This document shows, piece by piece, positions 4,659-16,564 of a stretch of 64,000 nucleotides of DNA (the stretch's first letter is position 1; each line of letters begins with the position of its first letter). Both the position numbers and the translations under genes were made by a program. Origin of the DNA: Tautonia marina (GTDB lineage: Bacteria; Planctomycetota; Planctomycetia; Isosphaerales; Isosphaeraceae); NCBI RefSeq assembly GCF_009177065.1, contig NZ_WEZF01000003.1, positions 124,001-188,000 on the forward strand, written 5' to 3'. The notes under the pieces are model-generated. The model made no database searches, had not been told where the DNA came from, and saw only the letters and a list, made by a program, of their open reading frames with translations.

Positions 4659-6635
4659 ATGAAGCGGATCATTGCCATCGCTGCGTTGCTCGGATCGCTC
4701 GGCGTGCTGCTGAAGTTCGGGACGAAACGTCCAGACCTTCCAGTTCGAGCGTTTGAATCTGCTTCGCGATCCGAACCCGCCGCTGAAACAGCGGACGCTG
4801 AACGCGCTCGTACCGAGGCACGGATCCGCAACGCCTATCCCGACCATCCGGAACTTGTGGAACGAGTTCTGGAGCGATTCGGCCGCAACGCAATTGCGAT
4901 CGAACGAACCGATGGACTTCGGGGCTTGCAACTGCTCGACCAGCTCGACCTCGAAGCGATTTATCTGTACGAACATGCTTCCGAGGATTTTCGTCGCCTC
5001 GCCACGCTCGTGGACGATGAAGCCGCGGCAGATCTGTTGCTTAACTGGCGAGAGTACTTCGGCCTGAAGCGTTCCGACTCGACCGACCGACGGGTTCTAA
5101 TCACATCCATCTCGCGTCTCAATGGTCGGCAACGTCGCGCCGCGGCCTCCTTCCCTTCTGCGTTGCCCCTGATTCTGAGTGATCCAATCGGAGTCACTCA
5201 ACTGATCGAGCGTTGGGAGCACGAGCCTGACCGCCTCGGACAATTGATGTCGGTCTTGATGTGCCTGGATCTCTCCGAGGGCTCTCCAGACCTGAAAGCC
5301 GCGGTTCGAACGATCGACATTTACGGCGACCTCGCGCTCGATGCCTTTCGGCTGCAAGGTCTCGACGGCTTTGCCACGGTGCATCGTTTTGGTGCGATTC
5401 TCCTGGTTCTCAGAGATGCGATCCCCCTGGATCATGCCTTGATCGTGCTTCGAGTCAATGAAGCGTACGTCGTCGATCGCCTCCGGAGTCGATCTCCTGA
5501 GATGGTTGCGTCCGAGTTGCGTCATGCGGCAGCCTTGAACCTGATTCCCGAGGTCGGAGGGAGTCCCGAGGGCCTGCGCTTGATCGCCGAACATGGTGTC
5601 GAGGCGGAACGAGCCCTCCGCCGAGTCGGCCCCGACGCGGCCTCGGTGGTGTACGACTATTCCAGCAACCACGTTGATCAGGAACGGGCAGTCGCCGCCA
5701 TCTCCGAGCACGGCGCCGCGGCGCTGGCGATGTTGACGAAATACGATGATCATGAGGGATTTCGAGAAATTCTTCGCCGCGACGGCCCGGCTGTGATCCC
5801 ACCGATCGCCTCGGCAGACGCCTCTCCCGAGTTCCTCGCCGAACTGAAGGCAAAACAAGAACGATCGACATTGGAAAACGTGGCCTATGCCATGACGAAA
5901 TTTTCGGGAGAGAGTGGCCAGCAGGCCATCGAGATGATCCGACGTGATGGAATTGGCCGGATCGAGTCGCTCGGATCGACGGAAACCGCCTACTACGAGT
6001 TCCTTCCGCTTTACGATCTCCTTCACCTCGGAGACGTCATGCGCAAGGGCTACTCTCCCACCCGGGGAGAATATGCCTGGGCGGTGGTTGATGCCGGGTT
6101 CATCATTGCGGATGTCCTGTTCCTGACGACCTTGCAGCCCCAAGGTGCCGTTGCCTCGGAAATCGCTCGCTCGGAAGTCAAATCCGCAGCCAAGGGAGCC
6201 ATTCGAGGAGCGGGTCGAATCGCCAGTGAGGAAACGGCGGAACTTGCCAGTCGAATCGCCGTTCGGCGCACGGCCATGGAATCGACCGACGCCACCGCTC
6301 GAGCGGCTCGATGGTGGGTGGTCCGATCCGCTGGCGGCCTCTTCGAGACGCTCAAGAAGACGCCCGCGGCCCTCGCCCGCCTCGATCTGCGCGAAGCGAC
6401 CGAAATGGCCCGACCGTTCTGTGCCAGATCCGGACTACGGCTCTCCACATGGGCTCCGATGCGATTTCTCAAACAAGGCGAACTGCTGATTCGTCGCATA
6501 CCGCCCAGGAAGGGCTTCAAATATCTCGCGATCGAAGCCACTCAGGCAGGGGTCGGGGTCGCTGCCATCCATAAGATGGAAGAACACCTTTCCTCAAGCC
6601 GACCGCTTCCAGAACGATCCACTGCCGGTTTCTGA
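4659..6635 (+). CDS. Membrane-anchored helical-repeat protein, GTPase-module partner, unknown function
   Basis: The 658-residue protein begins with a hydrophobic segment (residues 4-21) behind two basic residues, which fits a signal anchor. From about residue 40 to 430 it consists of loosely repeated amphipathic helices with recurring Gly-Ala or Gly-Val units, for example HGVEAERALRRVG and HGAAALAMLTKY, like HEAT/Armadillo-type solenoids. A second hydrophobic stretch (AVVDAGFIIADVLFLTTL) lies near residues 470-490, followed by a basic, alanine-rich tail. No enzymatic motif is visible. A YPD-containing repeat segment near residue 65 resembles one in the next gene. With that gene and the GTPase downstream on the same strand, it is probably part of one functional module. 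Confidence 0.7.
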   Translation: MKRIIAIAALLGSLGVLLKFGTKRPDLPVRAFESASRSEPAAETADAERARTEARIRNAYPDHPELVERVLERFGRNAIAIERTDGLRGLQLLDQLDLEAIYLYEHASEDFRRLATLVDDEAAADLLLNWREYFGLKRSDSTDRRVLITSISRLNGRQRRAAASFPSALPLILSDPIGVTQLIERWEHEPDRLGQLMSVLMCLDLSEGSPDLKAAVRTIDIYGDLALDAFRLQGLDGFATVHRFGAILLVLRDAIPLDHALIVLRVNEAYVVDRLRSRSPEMVASELRHAAALNLIPEVGGSPEGLRLIAEHGVEAERALRRVGPDAASVVYDYSSNHVDQERAVAAISEHGAAALAMLTKYDDHEGFREILRRDGPAVIPPIASADASPEFLAELKAKQERSTLENVAYAMTKFSGESGQQAIEMIRRDGIGRIESLGSTETAYYEFLPLYDLLHLGDVMRKGYSPTRGEYAWAVVDAGFIIADVLFLTTLQPQGAVASEIARSEVKSAAKGAIRGAGRIASEETAELASRIAVRRTAMESTDATARAARWWVVRSAGGLFETLKKTPAALARLDLREATEMARPFCARSGLRLSTWAPMRFLKQGELLIRRIPPRKGFKYLAIEATQAGVGVAAIHKMEEHLSSSRPLPERSTAGF

Positions 6636-6765
6636 CCGCATCCCCATCCGTCGAACCACAGGCGTTCTGAACGACCAAAGCGTAGGAGTGTCATTGCACC
6701 ACCAGGATTGATCGAGCGGGTGGCCGGTCCCGCGTGGTGCTCGACAAGATGAAGGATACGAACCC

Positions 6766-7707
6766 ATGCGATGGCGATTCCCAGTTCGACCGGCAACCGC
6801 AAGTCTGGCCCTCCTGTGCCTGCTGGCCGCTCCCCAAGCGGCAATGGCAAACAAAATCGGCTGGATGGACGACGTGGTTCGCAGGGTCGTGAAATCCACA
6901 GACCCTGAGCTCGCCCAGTCGGGTCGGATCTCGGGCCGGTTCTTTGACGAGGTCGCTGGCGAGAATCTTTCCACCCTCGCTCGCCGATCCGATACGATCG
7001 CCCACGCGGGACGACCGATCAACGAGGCGACCGAAACCGCCCTCGAGCTGCGTTTTGCCCGGATGCTCGACACCTCCGATCCCGAGTTCCTGCGCACCTT
7101 CCGCGCTCTTGAGCCAGCCGAAAAACGCCTGGTCCTTCGCATGGGAGAGGCCGCCGAGCGGATCGCCCGACGCTATCCCGATCAGGCCGACGTGATGATC
7201 CGGCGGCTCGGGGTTGACGGAATGACAGCCGTTCGGGTCTATGGGGATGACGTGGCCGAGGTGATTGCTCGAGAAGGTCCCGAGGCGATCAACGTGCTTC
7301 GCCGTTCAGGGCGTCCCGGCTGGAACTTCTATGTCGGACCAGTTTTGCAACACAAGCGAAAACTCGCGGCCGCAGGTGTTCTTGCGCTCTTCCTGGCCAA
7401 CCCGGAAAAGTTCGTCGATTCGGCAGGTCGAATCACCGAGTTCGCCGTTTCAAAGTTCGCCGAGGCCGGAATTGATCTGGCCGGGGCGGTCGGGGCGGGG
7501 GCTGCTCGTGGTCTGGAACACTCACTGGCCGATCGACTGGGATTGTCCAGTTTGGGTGGCCCAGTCTTTCGGTGGGCGCTCTTGATCGGAGCCGGGATTG
7601 TTGCGGTCCTGGCCATTCTGGTCATCGTGGGATTGCCCGTACGGTATCTGACTGCTCCATTTCGATTTGTCGGACGCGGTCTTCGGGCGACCGTTCGGTC
7701 ATCCTGA
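6766..7707 (+). CDS. Secreted or membrane helical-repeat protein, GTPase-module partner, unknown function
   Basis: The 313-residue protein has a signal peptide (residues 1-29, ending in APQAAMA), a helical region with repeats such as LGVDGMTAVRVYGDDVAEVI, a probable membrane segment near residues 200-215 (LAAAGVLALFLA) and a strong one near 265-290 (LLIGAGIVAVLAILVIVGL) followed by a basic tail. This suggests a helical domain outside the membrane and a short cytoplasmic end. The segment RIARRYPDQADVMIRRLG resembles RIRNAYPDHPELVERVLERFG in the upstream protein, so the two may be related. I do not recognise a characterised family. It lies 130 bases after its neighbour and about 108 before the GTPase gene. 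Confidence 0.7.
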   Translation: MRWRFPVRPATASLALLCLLAAPQAAMANKIGWMDDVVRRVVKSTDPELAQSGRISGRFFDEVAGENLSTLARRSDTIAHAGRPINEATETALELRFARMLDTSDPEFLRTFRALEPAEKRLVLRMGEAAERIARRYPDQADVMIRRLGVDGMTAVRVYGDDVAEVIAREGPEAINVLRRSGRPGWNFYVGPVLQHKRKLAAAGVLALFLANPEKFVDSAGRITEFAVSKFAEAGIDLAGAVGAGAARGLEHSLADRLGLSSLGGPVFRWALLIGAGIVAVLAILVIVGLPVRYLTAPFRFVGRGLRATVRSS

Positions 7708-7744
7708 TCTGCAGGGGAGCCGTTCCCTCTGATCCCGCAGATCA
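7705..7744. repeat. Inverted repeat between the membrane protein and the GTPase gene
   Basis: TGATCTGC at 7705-7712 is complementary to GCAGATCA at 7737-7744, and an inner AGGGGA/TCCCT pair can extend the hairpin. No T-run follows, so it is not a classical terminator. It may lower read-through or stabilise the transcript end between the two genes. Confidence 0.35.
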
Positions 7745-7815
7745 CAAAAGAACGGCTTCCTGCTCTCCCCGAACGCCCCTGAACTCCTGTCGCCTCGAAC
7801 CCCAGCTTGCATGGC

Positions 7816-10182
7816 ATGGCAACTCGACGCTCCCCTGATCTCGATGCTCTGGAACGCCGACTCACCGGCCCGAGGCGCATCGCGCTCTTTGGGCATCGAG
7901 CCGTCGGGAAAACCACGCTTCTCGCAATGTTTTATCGAGAAGCATCCGCTGGTCAGATTCCCGGGATTCGACTCGCGGCGGTCGGGGCTCGAGGAGCAGA
8001 GTATCTCGCCGACAAGATCGCCCGGATCGAGGCGGGCGAATCTCCGGCCGGAACCCTCACGGAAACCGACCTGGAATTACGCCTCTATCGGGGACCAGCC
8101 CGAATCGATTTGATCGTCAAGGATTACCAGGGAGAGCATGTTGCCCTAGGCTCCGACGCCTCGATTCTGGAATTCTTCGCCGACTGCGACGCCGTGTTGC
8201 TGTGCCTCGACGCCGCGGGGTCCGTTGAACCGGCAGAGCGGCGACGTCGGCAACAGGAAGTCGAGCATCTTCTGGAGCGATATATCGGCGCGTCGGACAA
8301 CACGATGATCGGTCGGCCGGTCGCCTTGCTCCTAACCAAGTACGATCGCGTTCTCGCCGCCGGAGGGCCGGAACCGGAGCGGGCCGAAGAAGTCGTCGAA
8401 TCACGGTTCGGGATGACCCGGCACGCGCTGGCCTCGCATGCGCCTCGTTCTGCGGTGTTTGCCGTCAGCTCTTACGGTGTGAACGCACCGGACGACGGCA
8501 CACCCCCGGAACACCTGGAGCCGATGGGGCTGGAAGGGCCATTGCTCTGGCTCGTCGAGCAGGTCGAGGCGACTGATCGCGAACTGCTGGAATGGATCTG
8601 GGATCTGGCGCCTCGCGACGCCTCTCGAATCTCCCGATGCCTCCGTGCCTACGCTCGACGTTATCCGAACTCGACGAAGCTCATCGAGTATCGACGACGC
8701 CTCCGATCCCTGCGCCGTCGCTCTCTGGTTCGTGGTCTCGTTCGGGGTGTTTCGGCCCTTGCCGCGCTGATCGCTGGTGCGGCGATTTACGACGCCGCCG
8801 GGTATCATCTGGCACTTGCTTACGAGCGTGGCGGACATTCGGCTCCAGAGATTGCCCGTCGCTGGGAGCAATTCCTTGCCTGGCATCCGACTCAACCGAT
8901 TTTCTGGCCCGAGGAGTCTCGCAATGCCCGTGCCCGTCGAGACGACGCTCGGGTCGAGGTTGCTCGATTACGAGCCGAGGTTGGTACAGGAGAGCAAGAC
9001 GTCCTTCGCGCAGAGCTTGCCGAGTTAAAAGAACGCTCACCCGAGCAACTTCCCGTCATCGAGGAAGCGGAGACGAACCTCCGTCGCCGTGAAGCCGAGC
9101 GTCGCTGGCAGGAGATTCGGGCCGAGGCCCTCATCCCCAGCCAGTCTGCAGAAGCGCGATTGGAGATGATCCAGCAATTTCTTCGGGACGATCCTGACAC
9201 CCCGTTTGCGGATCAGGCGGTCGAACTCGCCGAGTTGATCCGCAAGGAGCTGGATGAACAGGAAGCTCGACGCGACCGTGAGATCGTCGATGCCTGGCTC
9301 GTCGATGCCCGACTCCCTGATCCCGACTACCTCGACCTGATCGAGCGAGCCCGAACCTTCCTCGAAGCCCGTCCCGAGAGCCCAAGAGCCGACGAGGTCC
9401 GTGCGTTGATCGTCGACTGGGTCGAACGACTTGACCGTCGCGATTTCGATCGGGCGGTTGCCTTCGAAACCTCGTCACCCCGTCAGGCTTTTGATGAACA
9501 GATTCGGCGCTATCACGATTATCTTCGTGCCCATGCCGAGGGTGGCTCGTACGTCGAACAGGCCAAGCAATCCATCACGCGCATCGAGCAGCGTCGGGAT
9601 GAATTCCTCTATCGTCAGGCATTCGACCACTGGTCGTCGTTTCCCAACGATCTCCCCGAGGTTGCCCGACGCCTTCGAGATTACCTGGAATCAAATCCCG
9701 AGGGACAGTACACCCAGGCTGCCCGTACCTTTCTACAACGATGGGATGAACTGACAAAACCGCAGGACTACCAGGTCACCCTCGTCCGGGGAAGCGTCGA
9801 TCCGAGCATCACGAAAACGATGGGGGGAGGGGGGCCGGATCTTGGGGTGACCCTCTGGGTCGATGGCGAGAAATACGGCCCGTCCCCCGTGATTCCAAAC
9901 AGTAGCGAGCCAATCTGGAACTACACCTTTGGTCGACCAGTTCGCTGGAAATACGGCGACGACGTGGTGATCCAGCTCACCGATCATGACTGGTCCGATT
10001 CGGTCGTGGCCACGCTCCGGAGCGGTGATGATCCGCTGGCGATTCGGGTATTGAACGGGACGGTTCGACCTGCTCGGAGTAAAGGGCTCGTGAAGTTGAT
10101 CTTCCGATCGGATTTCGAATTACCCCACCTTCCCCGTCCCTCAGGCAACTCGACTGGCCGGGTCGCCGACGCCACCGAGTAA
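7816..10182 (+). CDS. Large membrane-associated P-loop GTPase with C2-like C-terminal domain
   Basis: The 788-residue protein opens with a GTPase domain: Walker A GHRAVGKT at residues 26-33, a G3-like DYQGE at 103-107 where Ras-type GTPases have DxxG, and TKYD at 174-177 in the place of the NKxD guanine-specificity motif. The DYQGE form recalls the double-GTPase (DO-GTPase) families of predicted bacterial conflict systems. A hydrophobic segment at about 311-329 follows a basic run, so the GTPase domain is probably cytoplasmic and membrane-tethered. Residues 340-650 are charged helices, possibly coiled coil or TPR-like. The last 120 residues (DLGVTLWVDGEKYG through LTDHDWSDS) resemble a C2 beta sandwich. 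The ATG at 7816 is preferred over a TTG three codons upstream. Confidence 0.75.
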   Translation: MATRRSPDLDALERRLTGPRRIALFGHRAVGKTTLLAMFYREASAGQIPGIRLAAVGARGAEYLADKIARIEAGESPAGTLTETDLELRLYRGPARIDLIVKDYQGEHVALGSDASILEFFADCDAVLLCLDAAGSVEPAERRRRQQEVEHLLERYIGASDNTMIGRPVALLLTKYDRVLAAGGPEPERAEEVVESRFGMTRHALASHAPRSAVFAVSSYGVNAPDDGTPPEHLEPMGLEGPLLWLVEQVEATDRELLEWIWDLAPRDASRISRCLRAYARRYPNSTKLIEYRRRLRSLRRRSLVRGLVRGVSALAALIAGAAIYDAAGYHLALAYERGGHSAPEIARRWEQFLAWHPTQPIFWPEESRNARARRDDARVEVARLRAEVGTGEQDVLRAELAELKERSPEQLPVIEEAETNLRRREAERRWQEIRAEALIPSQSAEARLEMIQQFLRDDPDTPFADQAVELAELIRKELDEQEARRDREIVDAWLVDARLPDPDYLDLIERARTFLEARPESPRADEVRALIVDWVERLDRRDFDRAVAFETSSPRQAFDEQIRRYHDYLRAHAEGGSYVEQAKQSITRIEQRRDEFLYRQAFDHWSSFPNDLPEVARRLRDYLESNPEGQYTQAARTFLQRWDELTKPQDYQVTLVRGSVDPSITKTMGGGGPDLGVTLWVDGEKYGPSPVIPNSSEPIWNYTFGRPVRWKYGDDVVIQLTDHDWSDSVVATLRSGDDPLAIRVLNGTVRPARSKGLVKLIFRSDFELPHLPRPSGNSTGRVADATE

Positions 10183-10200
10183 GCACGAGTCTCAGTGTTC

Positions 10201-10923
10201 ATGTGGCCCTTCACGCGACCCACCATTGCCTTCGAGCAAGCCGTTTATGGGAGTTTTCCCTTCTGGCACCGGGGCTACGATGTTCTGGGCTTCTCTCCCG
10301 GTTGCCAGACACAGTGGCTCTCAGCCATGAAAGACACCTGCCAACGGCTGGGAGAACGACTTAGAGGGGCCGCTCCCCCCGATGGACTTGTGACTCGCTG
10401 GCTTGAGGATGGTCACTGGCTCCTCGTTCGCCCCTTTTCTCCAGGGAGCGACGATGTGGGACGTCCCGATGCGGCTGCCTTTCATGCGATTTTCCTCAGC
10501 CCCGACAGTGCCCATCGTGTTCGCTTCGACCCCTTCCGCCTAACGTCCGTGTTTCGAGTGCAATGGGGGCCTGAGACCTCGGTACTTCCTCCGGGCAACT
10601 TGACATTGCCACGCTCCACGACAAACGATCGTGACAAGGACCACCGTGTCGGCCCCATTGTCGAGGCGATCGGACGGGGACGTCGAGTTCTGGTCGAGGC
10701 AGACGCCCCGATTGATCGGCTGGCCGCTCAGGTGTGGCGGGCCCTCCCGCAGCGGGTCCGCCACCGTCGATCTCTGGCAACCTGGGCGTATACCGACTCC
10801 GGCCGATTTGATCTCATCGGTCTTCCAAGGCTGACGGGAATCGACGTCACGGATCGGCAACTGATTGTGCTCGCCGCAAACCCGGACGAGGCGACGCGTC
10901 ACCCGAGCGCAGGAATCTGCTAA
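10201..10923 (+). CDS. Protein resembling the GTPase-associated protein 1 N-terminal domain
   Basis: The 240-residue protein begins with TIAFEQAVYGSFPFWHRGYD, continues with a conserved-looking SPGCQTQWL, and ends with a segment LPQRVRHRRSLATWAY. A Gln-Ala-x-Tyr-Gly opening and a Pro-x-x-x-Arg-x-x-x-Ser-x-x-Thr segment are features I associate with GAP1-N domains, which are found beside GTPases in predicted NTP-dependent conflict or signalling systems. The assignment is from memory of the family pattern and is tentative. The gene starts 18 bases after the GTPase stop, which argues strongly for a common transcript. A GTG two codons upstream (10195) is an alternative start. Confidence 0.5.
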   Translation: MWPFTRPTIAFEQAVYGSFPFWHRGYDVLGFSPGCQTQWLSAMKDTCQRLGERLRGAAPPDGLVTRWLEDGHWLLVRPFSPGSDDVGRPDAAAFHAIFLSPDSAHRVRFDPFRLTSVFRVQWGPETSVLPPGNLTLPRSTTNDRDKDHRVGPIVEAIGRGRRVLVEADAPIDRLAAQVWRALPQRVRHRRSLATWAYTDSGRFDLIGLPRLTGIDVTDRQLIVLAANPDEATRHPSAGIC

Positions 10924-12206: not shown

Positions 12207-12554
12207 TTAGAAGACATCGAGGACGAAGTGATGTCCTTGATAGTACTTCTTCTTGTTGCTCCAGTCGTGGAACCAGTGCGGCTGTCGATCCAGGCCGAAC
12301 AATTTCTTCCCACCGTAGAAGTTGCGGTAGTAAGGTCCCTGGATCTGCGGGACAATCCGCATTTCCTTGGGATAGAGGTACCAGCCATCGTAAAGCTGAT
12401 TGTTCTGAACCCCGTTACCGGGAACCTGGGGCGGTACGTAGGGCCAGTGGTAGAACGAGGTCCAATCCTGGGCCTTGGCCTGTTGCGGTGCCGCAACGAA
12501 TCCAACAGTCAGGCCGAACAGAATTGCCGAAGCCACGATCATCCTGCGGGTCAT
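12207..12554 (-). CDS. Small secreted protein, aromatic-rich, unknown function
   Basis: The 115-residue protein has a classical signal peptide ending AKA before QDW at about residue 29. The mature part is rich in Tyr, Trp, His and Pro (for example YHWPYVPPQVPG and RQPHWFHDWSNKK), so it is probably a periplasmic or surface protein. GGAGGTGAG sits directly upstream of the ATG, an excellent ribosome binding site that suggests high expression. No known domain was recognised. Confidence 0.65.
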   Translation of the reverse strand: MTRRMIVASAILFGLTVGFVAAPQQAKAQDWTSFYHWPYVPPQVPGNGVQNNQLYDGWYLYPKEMRIVPQIQGPYYRNFYGGKKLFGLDRQPHWFHDWSNKKKYYQGHHFVLDVF

Positions 12555-13904: not shown

Positions 13905-15701
13905 TCAAGGCCGAGGGGGAATCTCGATCAAGGAACGAGGTGCCCCCTCTGGAGTGACTGCGTTGTCGAAGGGAGAAGGAGCCGCCTGCGGAGGTTCTGC
14001 AGGCGTTTCCAGACGAGTTCCGGATCTCGGCTCGACCTGTTGTTCTGAGGCTTTCCAGAGTTCGTCAGGCCAGGAGACTCGATTGAGCACGCCTCGAGAA
14101 ACGGTGTATCCCCCATTACCGTCTTCCTCAATCCGGGCGATCTCGTCGCGGTGCTGGTGCCGAATGAACTCAAGCATCTCTCGGGCCTCCTGATCCTTGC
14201 CTCGAGCCAGGCACAGCTGTGCCTGGAATCCGAGGAGTCTCAGGGCCTGATCCGCATTCATCGCCGTTCGCGTCAACTCGTGCAAGACTCGATCGACCCC
14301 GTCGTAATCCTGCTGGAGGTACGCATAGAACGCGATTGGTCTCACCCGCAGCGATCGACTCACCGGATTGGTTTCCAGGTCTCGGGTCAGTCGGGAACCT
14401 AGCTCCGCAAGTCGCTTGTACGATGCCTGAGACGGCCCAACCTCGCCAAGCTCGGCCGCGAGGGGCAATCGGGTCGGCCGCTCCCGAGGCGGAGTGCCTG
14501 GCTCCGCAGCCTCTGCGAGGGCGACGATCCAGGCTGCTCGAAGTTCGTCGTCGGGAAGCAACGGATGCAGTCGCTTGTCCTTCAGGGTGATCCTTGCCGG
14601 AAGCGATCCGCCCCCTGGTCCTCCGAATCGAAAGGCAAGCTGATCTCCCCGAGGAGACAGGCTTGGTGCTCCGATCATGCCCAGCCCCGAAAACGGATGA
14701 ATCCGATCAATGGGATGGCTTCCCTGATGGTATGCGATCGCCGTGGACCGACCTGAGAACTGGACCACGAAGAACTGATCGAGCCCATCCGCACCAATGC
14801 TCAGGTAAGAACCGAGAATCTGCTCCCCGGGCAAGGCCGGGCTCTCAATCTCCTTGACCTCCCGAGGGACTCGCTCGCTCATCCGATAGCTAAATAACCG
14901 AACCTGTCGCCCCTCGGCCGAGGGATTTCCCGGTTTCAAGTAAAGCAGCGACTGCCCGTCCGAAGTCCATGAGGCTGGCTGACAGGGCTGGGCGACGAGA
15001 TCAACGGGGCGATCCGACTCCGGCCCCAGGTCCAGGTCACTCTCGATCAGCTCCCACCGGTCTCCTCGGGACCGAAAAAAGGCCATTCGACTCCCGAGGG
15101 GTGAAAACGACAAGAACCGGGCGTCATCGAGTTGCCTGAGCGTTTCCCCGGTTTTGAGTTCGATCAACTCGACCGCCGCATGATCTGGATCGGGGACCGC
15201 CAACACCCCCCCTCTCGGCTCCCAGCCAACCGACTCCGCCATGAGGACCTCGCCCCGGTCCGGTCTTCGAAGCAGCGGCCGGCGACGGACCACCTCCCGG
15301 TCTTCGCCATAAGAAATTACAACCTCCCAGCTCAAGGAGTCGTCTCGGTCATCTTCCACGACCTGAACGAACGCCAGTCCTCGACCGTCCGGTCCCCACG
15401 CAGGGGAGGAGAGGGAGTAGGAACTCTCTGCCACCTTCAACGCCTGGCCATCCGTAACCCGAACGGCCCAGAGCCGATAGGTTCGTCCGGAGCCCAGAGG
15501 ATCGGATCGGGTCGCGTTCGACTCGGCCCAATCATTCTCGGGCGGAAAGAAGGGGAATCGTGCCAGCGAATGCTCAACCGACGGTGTCGCGACTACAAAC
15601 GCAACCCAATCACCCGATGGAGACCAGACCACGGGCGGATCCGAAACCTCACTCATCAAAACGCCAACCATCACCAGATTGGTCAACAAGGAAGCGATCA
15701 T
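13905..15701 (-). CDS. WD40-like (TolB-type) beta-propeller protein, probably exported
   Basis: The 598-residue protein begins MIASLLTNLVMVGVLMS, a hydrophobic start consistent with a signal peptide. It then carries repeated blades typical of PD40 repeats: VVWSPSGDWVAFVV, SPAWGPDGRGLAFV, ASWTSDGQSLLYL and SLSPRGDQLAFRFG. The last 170 residues are helical, with repeated LAELG and LLGFQAQLCLARGKDQEA segments that look TPR-like. It may be a periplasmic scaffold or sensor. The upstream in-frame extension to 15785 lacks any signal-peptide character and is rejected. Confidence 0.7.
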   Translation of the reverse strand: MIASLLTNLVMVGVLMSEVSDPPVVWSPSGDWVAFVVATPSVEHSLARFPFFPPENDWAESNATRSDPLGSGRTYRLWAVRVTDGQALKVAESSYSLSSPAWGPDGRGLAFVQVVEDDRDDSLSWEVVISYGEDREVVRRRPLLRRPDRGEVLMAESVGWEPRGGVLAVPDPDHAAVELIELKTGETLRQLDDARFLSFSPLGSRMAFFRSRGDRWELIESDLDLGPESDRPVDLVAQPCQPASWTSDGQSLLYLKPGNPSAEGRQVRLFSYRMSERVPREVKEIESPALPGEQILGSYLSIGADGLDQFFVVQFSGRSTAIAYHQGSHPIDRIHPFSGLGMIGAPSLSPRGDQLAFRFGGPGGGSLPARITLKDKRLHPLLPDDELRAAWIVALAEAAEPGTPPRERPTRLPLAAELGEVGPSQASYKRLAELGSRLTRDLETNPVSRSLRVRPIAFYAYLQQDYDGVDRVLHELTRTAMNADQALRLLGFQAQLCLARGKDQEAREMLEFIRHQHRDEIARIEEDGNGGYTVSRGVLNRVSWPDELWKASEQQVEPRSGTRLETPAEPPQAAPSPFDNAVTPEGAPRSLIEIPPRP

Positions 15702-16015
15702 GGGCTGTGACACTCTCGTGGGATGAAGGAGGCAGAAACGCGCCCCATTATGCCGATTTTGCGGAATGGGAGATCTGGGCAACAATCAGAAGCCGAACCG
15801 CCTTGGTCTTTCATTTGACCGAATCGTCTTGGGGGTTAAACTCAAGCAGATTTCCAAGGTAACTTGCTGCCGTGCACGGGGATAGCCTTGTTGGTTCCGT
15901 CCGGTCTTGATTATAGTGTGCCGATGATTATCCGTCGGCCCTCCTGTACGTTCCCCGAGGCGCATTTCGAACCTCGAACTCCCGACCGGGCCACACCTTG
16001 AGTTGAGAAGCATCC
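15702..16015. other. Divergent intergenic region ahead of the fatty-acid/polyketide-like cluster
   Basis: This 314-base gap separates the minus-strand propeller gene from the first dehydratase. It contains the promoter candidate at 15888-15917 listed separately. No coding signal or repeat was seen in the rest. Confidence 0.3.
15888..15917 (+). promoter_or_regulatory. Candidate sigma-70-type promoter for the dehydratase-ACP-ketosynthase cluster
   Basis: TTGTTG at 15888-15893 and TATAGT at 15912-15917 are separated by 18 bases, and the first gene of the cluster starts about 100 bases downstream. Both hexamers match the consensus at four or five of six positions. Planctomycete promoters are poorly defined, so this is a candidate only. 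Confidence 0.4.
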
Positions 16016-16564
16016 ATGAGATTCGTGCTCATCGATCGGATCCTCGACCTCGAGCCTGGAAGGCGTCTCGAGGCGGTCAAGAATCTCTCGCTCGGCGAAG
16101 AGTACTTGGCCGACCACTTCCCGGGCTTCCCCGTGATGCCTGGCGTGTTGATGCTCGAAGCCCTGGCGCAAGCGGGTGCCTGGCTGATTCGAGACATGGA
16201 AGACTTCTCTCATAGCGTGATCTTGCTCAAGCAGGCGCGGACGATCAAGTACGGCAGTTTTGTTGAACCAGGCCGTCGCCTCGTCCTGCAGGTCGATCTG
16301 ATCAAGCACGGAGATCGGGAATCCGAATTCAAGGGAAAAGGGGTCATCGACGATCAGGTCATGGTCGGCGGTCGATTCACCCTCATGCGTTACAACCTTC
16401 GTGAACGCGACCCCGCGCTTCATCGAACCGACACTCAGATCGTCGAGCAGATGAGAGATCTCTACGCAACGCTCCGCAAGGGTTCGGTTGCCGCGAAGGC
16501 CATGAGTCGGAACGGTTCGGTTAGCGAACCTGCCGTGATGACTAGTTCGTCCCATTCGTCTTGA
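16016..16564 (+). CDS. FabZ-like 3-hydroxyacyl-ACP dehydratase (first copy)
   Basis: The 182-residue protein has the hotdog-fold signature of FabZ: DHFPGFPVMPGVLMLEALAQ at residues 39-58, with the catalytic His and, 14 residues later, Glu. It would dehydrate beta-hydroxyacyl chains on the acyl carrier protein encoded just downstream. It is about 30 residues longer than housekeeping FabZ, with a basic tail. It is the first gene of a same-strand cluster with a second dehydratase, two ketosynthases and an ACP, so a specialised lipid or polyketide role is more likely than general fatty acid synthesis. Confidence 0.85.
   Translation: MRFVLIDRILDLEPGRRLEAVKNLSLGEEYLADHFPGFPVMPGVLMLEALAQAGAWLIRDMEDFSHSVILLKQARTIKYGSFVEPGRRLVLQVDLIKHGDRESEFKGKGVIDDQVMVGGRFTLMRYNLRERDPALHRTDTQIVEQMRDLYATLRKGSVAAKAMSRNGSVSEPAVMTSSSHSS

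Follow-up and report, generated by a model that had tools for sequence, protein, structure and literature searches.

DO-GTPases have been described as the centre of a group of bacterial systems in which the GTPase is accompanied by a GAP1 protein with N, M and C regions and, for the N2 type, by FNIII proteins and variable effectors (Kaur et al. 2020, PMC7159879). In the parts of that paper available here, a function in biological conflict is proposed for these GTPase-centric systems, including those of planctomycetes; in GAP1-N2 systems the GTPase usually, though not always, carries zinc ribbons, and some GTPases have a C-terminal transmembrane (TM) segment followed by a beta-sandwich or another domain. 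A DO-GTPase is also encoded in gammaproteobacterial psp operons, where it is predicted to act in stresses of the membrane (PMC11237479). In the available parts of both sources, the roles of DO-GTPase and GAP1 are predictions only. This paper will focus on four genes, here designated A, B, C and D, which lie in this order at positions 4659-10923 of the forward strand in a stretch of 64,000 nucleotides of Tautonia marina (the window; contig NZ_WEZF01000003.1, positions 124,001 to 188,000). An earlier note, made from the letters of the window, had pointed out a GTPase gene with a GAP1-like neighbour and two membrane proteins at this place. We propose, with a probability of roughly 0.55, that A, B, C and D form a GTP-switched complex across the inner membrane, which would be permanent equipment of the family Isosphaeraceae and would serve envelope maintenance or remodelling.

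The distribution of the genes was analysed at a threshold of E 1e-5 in 59 genomes of relatives, consisting of 37 from the Isosphaeraceae (f1, the family of the window) and 22 others. C was identified in all 37 family genomes and in none of the others, B in 35/37 and 0/22, and D in 35/37 and 1/22. For the class, a sample of 148 genomes was used, 38 of them from the family (G007, G027, G028 and G031 are not part of it). Here, C was found in 38/38 family genomes, nearly full length in two genomes of f3, taken as Gemmataceae, and as one further weak match; A was present in 37/38 family genomes with weak matches in two f3 genomes, and D in 36/38 family genomes and in 23 f3 genomes. The two family genomes in which B and D were missed, G012 and G024, are 81% and 68% complete, and A was missed in G012. 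In samples of the phylum, B was identified in its own genome and by one weak match among 199 genomes, and A, using a broader profile, in its own genome and in three more of 343.

The arrangement of the genes was compared in 37 regions of the family, where negative gaps occur because the longest start of each open reading frame was chosen. C and D are adjacent within 200 bp in 24 of the 35 evaluable regions, with a contig end in two more. Of 33 regions in which the position of B could be evaluated, 29 contain it less than 2.3 kb upstream of C (21 within 300 bp) and four do not, while a contig edge interrupts the position in the other 4 of 37. A and B lie within 600 bp of each other in 21/37 genomes, 16 by the synteny regions and five (G005, G008, G025, G034 and G036) by match positions. 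The complete order A-B-C-D with gaps below 1.3 kb was found in 12/37 regions. On the question raised in the earlier note, whether the four genes stay together in other Isosphaeraceae, they are neighbours in pairs in most relatives and form a single run in these 12 regions.

Selection on the four genes was estimated from the ratio of nonsynonymous to synonymous substitution rates (dN/dS) against three congeners, with dS values of 0.9-1.9, which makes the ratios rough. The values were 0.045, 0.093 and 0.089 for C, 0.060, 0.113 and 0.114 for A, 0.060, 0.183 and 0.163 for B, and 0.085, 0.193 and 0.207 for D, compared to 0.084, 0.101 and 0.122 for the neighbouring pyruvate kinase. Purifying selection thus acts on all four genes, and for C and A it is about as strong as for pyruvate kinase. 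For seven genomes outside the genus, the median identity to the window was 54% for pyruvate kinase, 48% for A, 49% for B and 48% for C; for D it was 39% (four genomes). Since the genes are conserved throughout the family and show dN/dS values of 0.045-0.207, chance open reading frames can be excluded, and A to D are a real four-gene module. Judged by distribution and constraint, they are a fixed core module of the family, unlike the conflict systems with their variable effectors.

C matches DO-GTPase2 (Pfam PF19993) with 38.4 bits (E 1.4e-9), above the curated cut-off of 27, and the same family is matched by 35/35 aligned C homologues at E <=0.5, the best at 5.8e-15. By this profile evidence, C is a DO-GTPase2 protein. 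The P-loop G-x-R-x-V-G-K-T-T and the sequence D-Y-Q-G-E are invariant in the 35 homologues and TK[YF]D is nearly so, which confirms the GTPase with a DYQGE G3 motif and TKYD recognized in the earlier note; a GTPase fold with P-loop, Walker B glutamate and TKxD is complete in C. An AlphaFold2 model from 35 sequences (mean predicted local distance difference test, pLDDT, 84.5) comprises the GTPase domain, a long helix containing the TM segment, a series of helical hairpins and a terminal beta-sandwich. With VIA-align, the GTPase domain gave Z 13.7-15.2 among the 50 matches listed, most of which were Arf/Arl, Rag and Rho proteins. Foldseek also matched C to mitofusins and bacterial dynamin-like proteins, which we attribute solely to a similarity of the GTPase domain.

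The C-terminal end of C was matched by Foldseek to several C2 domains, namely 2nq3 (E 2.5e-5, target TM-score 0.67), 7a1r (0.69) and 3w57 (0.71), which supports a C2 fold. On the sequence level, C matches 9bkw with E 0.012, and the related entry 9bky is a Trichomonas C2 domain; Pfam C2 is matched weakly by 14/35 homologues (best 0.0091). Comparison with the motif of C2 calcium loops suggests four candidate acids, with Asp conserved at position 676 in 34/35 homologues, at 724 in 34/35, at 726 in 30/35 and at 729 in 19/35. Lysine and arginine (K/R) are more frequent in the 20 residues before the TM helix than in the 20 after it in 35/35 sequences (medians 8 versus 2), and this bias suggests an N-in/C-out topology with the GTPase inside and the arm and C2-like domain outside. 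C is thus predicted to have a Ras/Arf-like GTPase in the cytoplasm, connected by one TM helix to a helical arm outside, which ends in a C2 fold. Neither this fold nor the layout across the membrane had been pointed out in the earlier note. If the layout is true, a C2-type domain outside the inner membrane would be controlled by a cytoplasmic Ras-like switch.

For D, the earlier note had suggested a GAP1-N-like protein. Window D alone reaches 16 bits against GAP1-N2 (E 0.012-0.013), below the Pfam cut-off of 24, so that the suggestion holds on the level of the family: GAP1-N2 is matched by 22/34 D homologues at E <=1 (best 1.2e-5), the homologue L150 lies above the cut-off at 25.8 bits, and GAP1-M is matched by 4/34 (best 0.0024). 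The D family was also aligned by hhalign to the other GAP1-N2 protein of its own genome (80% over 186 columns) and to another GAP1-N2 protein, L183 (37%). GAP1-C does not occur in the list of 14 families matched by the 34 homologues, and window D has few residues past the M-like region; D is named GAP1-like for this reason, and probably represents a short GAP1 relative. The best match of D among PDB sequences was a designed protein with E 0.017. Among the 34 homologues, 18 are shorter and 16 longer than 400 aa, and 18/34, including 15 of the 16 long ones, contain a TM-like segment after residue 200, defined as a 19-residue stretch with a mean hydropathy of at least 1.5.

A second, ordinary DO-GTPase and GAP1-N2 pair was identified elsewhere in the same genome (L182, G000:C1:610000-627000; 6997-8656, minus strand). 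Its GTPase has 295 aa (DO-GTPase1 3.5e-12, DO-GTPase2 6.1e-12) and its GAP1-N2 partner 287 aa (3.6e-18). In three f3 genomes (L154, L158 and L165), a gene which by eye codes for a Gfo/Idh oxidoreductase is followed by a D homologue whose C-terminus contains a hydrophobic segment; in L154 and L165 the oxidoreductase gene is preceded by an ispH-like gene.

Profile searches gave no Pfam or NCBIfam match of note for A or B. Two hydrophobic segments are present in most A homologues, and K/R are more frequent after the second segment in 13/16 sequences and more frequent before it in 0/16. Based on this charge bias, the stretch between the segments is probably extracytoplasmic. Invariant residues are kept near the C-terminus of A in 16 sequences. 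The model of B (pLDDT 76.9, predicted TM-score, pTM, 0.62) is nearly all helical, with the best-modelled part at about residues 91-240 (block pLDDT 81-93), and K/R are more frequent after its C-terminal TM segment than before it in 28/29 sequences. Foldseek gave no match for the B fold at <=0.001, and the best VIA match, to a TAL effector (Z 4.3, 66 aligned residues, root mean square deviation 3.0), demonstrates neither a known nor a new fold. The two proteins had been regarded earlier as related helical-repeat membrane proteins; the helical character of B, in the model, and the hydrophobic segments of both were found, a solenoid character of A was not confirmed, and homology of A and B is not supported by hhalign (probability 2.4%).

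Diverged units of similar composition have been identified in a number of other genomes. G289 contains C next to D (L149) and, in addition, at L178, an operon of diverged A, B and C (2.1e-24, 1.2e-39 and 1.7e-36, respectively). An A-C unit is present in G022 (L176), and in G004 a run at a contig end (L177) codes for an A-like (hhalign 76.8%), a B-like (hhalign 94.8%) and a C-like protein (1.5e-8). Outside the class, G404 contains A, C and D in the same order (L227), with matches of 5.5e-34 to the broader A profile, 1.3e-16 to C, 1.8e-5 to the C2 region and 1.5e-6 to D, and with hhalign probabilities of 98.2% for the GTPase and 89.9% for D. In P0007, a fusion protein from G257, an A-like N-terminus (hhalign 96.7%) is followed by an ectodomain which resembles that of the G022 protein P0009, a relative of C (BLASTP 7e-11). 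The recurrence of the same gene order in diverged operons, together with this fusion of A and a C ectodomain, suggests a physical complex. A second type of fusion, between A and the C-terminus of B, was considered for P0008, L227 and L228, where the parts are alike by eye, but is unproven, with hhalign probabilities of 0.1% and 4.3%. Another protein with a DO-GTPase2 domain, P0001 (L172:8990-11233, minus strand; f3, Gemmataceae), has its GTPase at the C-terminus, preceded by hydrophobic stretches and pairs of cysteines; its layout differs from that of C, and it is not matched by the C profile.

In the proposed complex, C would act as a cytoplasmic Ras/Arf-like switch of the DO-GTPase2 family, and D, as a GAP1-like protein, may act on the GTPase domain as its regulator. 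Binding or hydrolysis of GTP would alter the state or the assembly of C, and the one TM helix would transmit this change to the helical arm in the periplasm and to the C2 domain, which might bind to the surface of a membrane, perhaps with Ca2+. Large external parts are predicted for A and B, which would assemble on the arm of C as a scaffold. Such an arrangement works like that of the Ras/Arf-like small GTPases with their GTPase-activating proteins, in that a switch GTPase of this fold is combined with a partner protein, for example, in MglA and MglB; unlike these small GTPases, C carries a TM helix and a large ectodomain. A bolder version, in which the Ras-like GTPase drives a periplasmic, C2-dependent and perhaps Ca2+-dependent machine of the C arm, A and B, which engages membranes under GAP1-like control for remodelling or tethering of the planctomycete envelope, is put forward tentatively and is rather doubtful. 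Planctomycetes form membrane invaginations and, to our knowledge, are without FtsZ. If this version were true, the conflict systems related to the module and machinery of the envelope would have a common origin.

From the same predicted layout of C, A and B, with its hydrophobic segments and charge bias, a switch for envelope stress can also be constructed, in which the arm and the C2 domain of C sense the periplasm or the membrane and signal inwards via the GTPase and D, with A and B as accessories of the sensor. The DO-GTPase of the psp operons, with its membrane-stress prediction (PMC11237479), would fit such a switch and shares family membership and a proposed envelope role with C in the available part of that source. 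A weak GGDEF match upstream of the pyruvate kinase gene can be added. However, C differs from the psp-operon protein by its own TM helix, its arm, its C2-like domain and its GAP1-like partner, no psp gene was identified among the ten flanking genes scanned, and the direction of signalling cannot be read from a sequence. We consider this explanation rather improbable. The psp-operon proteins concerned are presumably YcjX and YcjF.

Several findings weigh against a complex of all four proteins with a role in the envelope. The pTM of the C model is 0.43, so that the relative placing of the domains is not fixed by it, the first acid of the classical C2 calcium loops is not evident in C, and the charge bias at the first segment of A is ambiguous (K/R more frequent before it in 2/16 sequences and after it in 8/16). 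The fusion argument contains one indirect step, since the C profile matches the ectodomain of P0009 with E 0.019 and the direct match of P0007 to the C family reaches 17%. A D homologue is present in 23 f3 genomes, but C was found at nearly full length in only 2 of these, and no C was found in 19/20 f3 regions examined. Within the family, D does not adjoin C in 11/35 evaluable regions, A and B are separate in 10/37 genomes (6 more were not assessable), A-B lies apart from C-D in G008, G025 and G034, and in G005 D is located on the contig of A-B with C alone on another. The arrangement in these four genomes would be expected if A-B and C-D were two separate conserved pairs, neighbours by chance and without joint function. 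However, linked genes were found again in diverged units and in a genome from outside the class, and a fusion of A with a C ectodomain exists, which makes separate pairs very unlikely.

To the same side belong findings which would suit a true GTPase-centric conflict system, in which the pair of GTPase and GAP1-like protein would detect an invader and then set free A, B or both as effectors, acting on membranes or as nucleases. In two of the three comparisons, B and D are less constrained than pyruvate kinase, the C-terminal half of D varies among homologues, and P0004, a diverged A paralogue from a Gemmataceae metagenome-assembled genome (L178:12098-14605, minus strand), ends in a stretch with a motif which by eye is nuclease-like and would suit an effector. 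Homology of C to DO-GTPase2 and of D to GAP1-N2, together with the proposal of such systems for planctomycetes (PMC7159879), points in this direction as well. However, searches of Pfam, NCBIfam and PDB sequences gave no match for this stretch, and a nuclease domain is not claimed. C is present in every family genome, while only 21/37 of them contain one or more additional DO-GTPase2 matches at 1e-4, the constraint on C and A is about that on pyruvate kinase, and the C-terminus of A keeps its invariant residues. PADLOC gave a single match, to C at E 0.051. A defence system is therefore unlikely, and a role in envelope maintenance or remodelling rather than defence is the likely one.

The relation to the described systems can be defined by comparison with Kaur et al. 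(PMC7159879), as far as the available parts of that paper reach. Common to both are a homologous GTPase and a GAP1-N2/M-like protein, with the GTPase gene preceding the GAP1 gene, and an association with membranes. Since the pairing of DO-GTPase2 with a short GAP1-N2/M-like protein is supported, the link is one of homology and suggests that the module and the conflict systems come from a common stock; to this extent, the resemblance seen in the earlier note is justified. In contrast to those systems, the module is near-universal in its family, constrained and equipped with a C2-like domain, and partners like A and B are not described there, in agreement with the earlier note, to which membrane partners of this kind were foreign. 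No FNIII component was identified in A to D or in ten flanking genes (the search did not extend to the remaining genome), the 35 C homologues all lack CxxC, and in the samples of the family A and B are conserved instead of varying among close relatives like effectors. Because GAP1-C, FNIII proteins, zinc ribbons and variable effectors were not found in these comparisons, the module is not placed in the described conflict systems and would represent a variant of the DO-GTPase/GAP1 kind outside them, presumably with an envelope function. A search of titles of open PMC papers, with few terms specific to the module, gave none on it. The version fixed in a family offers a case in which the biochemistry and the cellular role of the pair can be studied without an invader.

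Table 1. Positions in the window of the four genes and of the predicted parts of C.
Feature	Position	Strand	Description
Gene A	4659..6635	+	658 aa; N-terminal hydrophobic segment 4668-4724, second 6078-6134; no Pfam family
Gene B	6766..7707	+	313 aa; N-terminal signal-like segment, helical domain, C-terminal TM segment 7579-7635 with basic tail; no Pfam family
Gene C	7816..10182	+	788 aa; DO-GTPase2, TM helix, helical arm, C2-like domain
C, Ras/Arf-like GTPase domain	7840..8607	+	model residues 10-265; P-loop, DYQGE, TKYD
C, TM helix	8734..8790	+	model residues 308-326
C, helical-hairpin arm	8842..9753	+	model residues 344-647; YfiO matched by 20/35 homologues (best 2.4e-7)
C, C2-like beta-sandwich	9763..10110	+	residues 651-766; candidate Ca2+-loop acids 676, 724, 726, 729
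Gene D	10201..10923	+	240 aa; GAP1-like (N2 and M regions); no TM segment

The listing of open reading frames contains the four genes on the same strand at the place given in the earlier note. The start of C may be ATG 7816 (788 aa) or TTG 7807 (791 aa). For D, the ATG at 10201 gives the 240-aa protein 18 bases past the C stop, as had been read before, and GTG 10195 would give 242 aa. The module is flanked by a divergent pyruvate kinase gene on one side and by a methyltransferase gene on the other. The other flanking genes, out of ten scanned, code for a peptidase M20, the protein with the weak GGDEF match, a peptidase M28 and two ketoacyl synthases, and three of the ten have no Pfam match at 0.001. 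The source genome has a size of 7.07 Mb. Close to the module, two further proteins without a Pfam match are encoded on the minus strand at 13905-15785 and 15911-16555 and are common to three congeners. A 115-aa protein encoded at 12207-12554 (minus strand), also without a Pfam match, shows 80-96% identity in three congeners.

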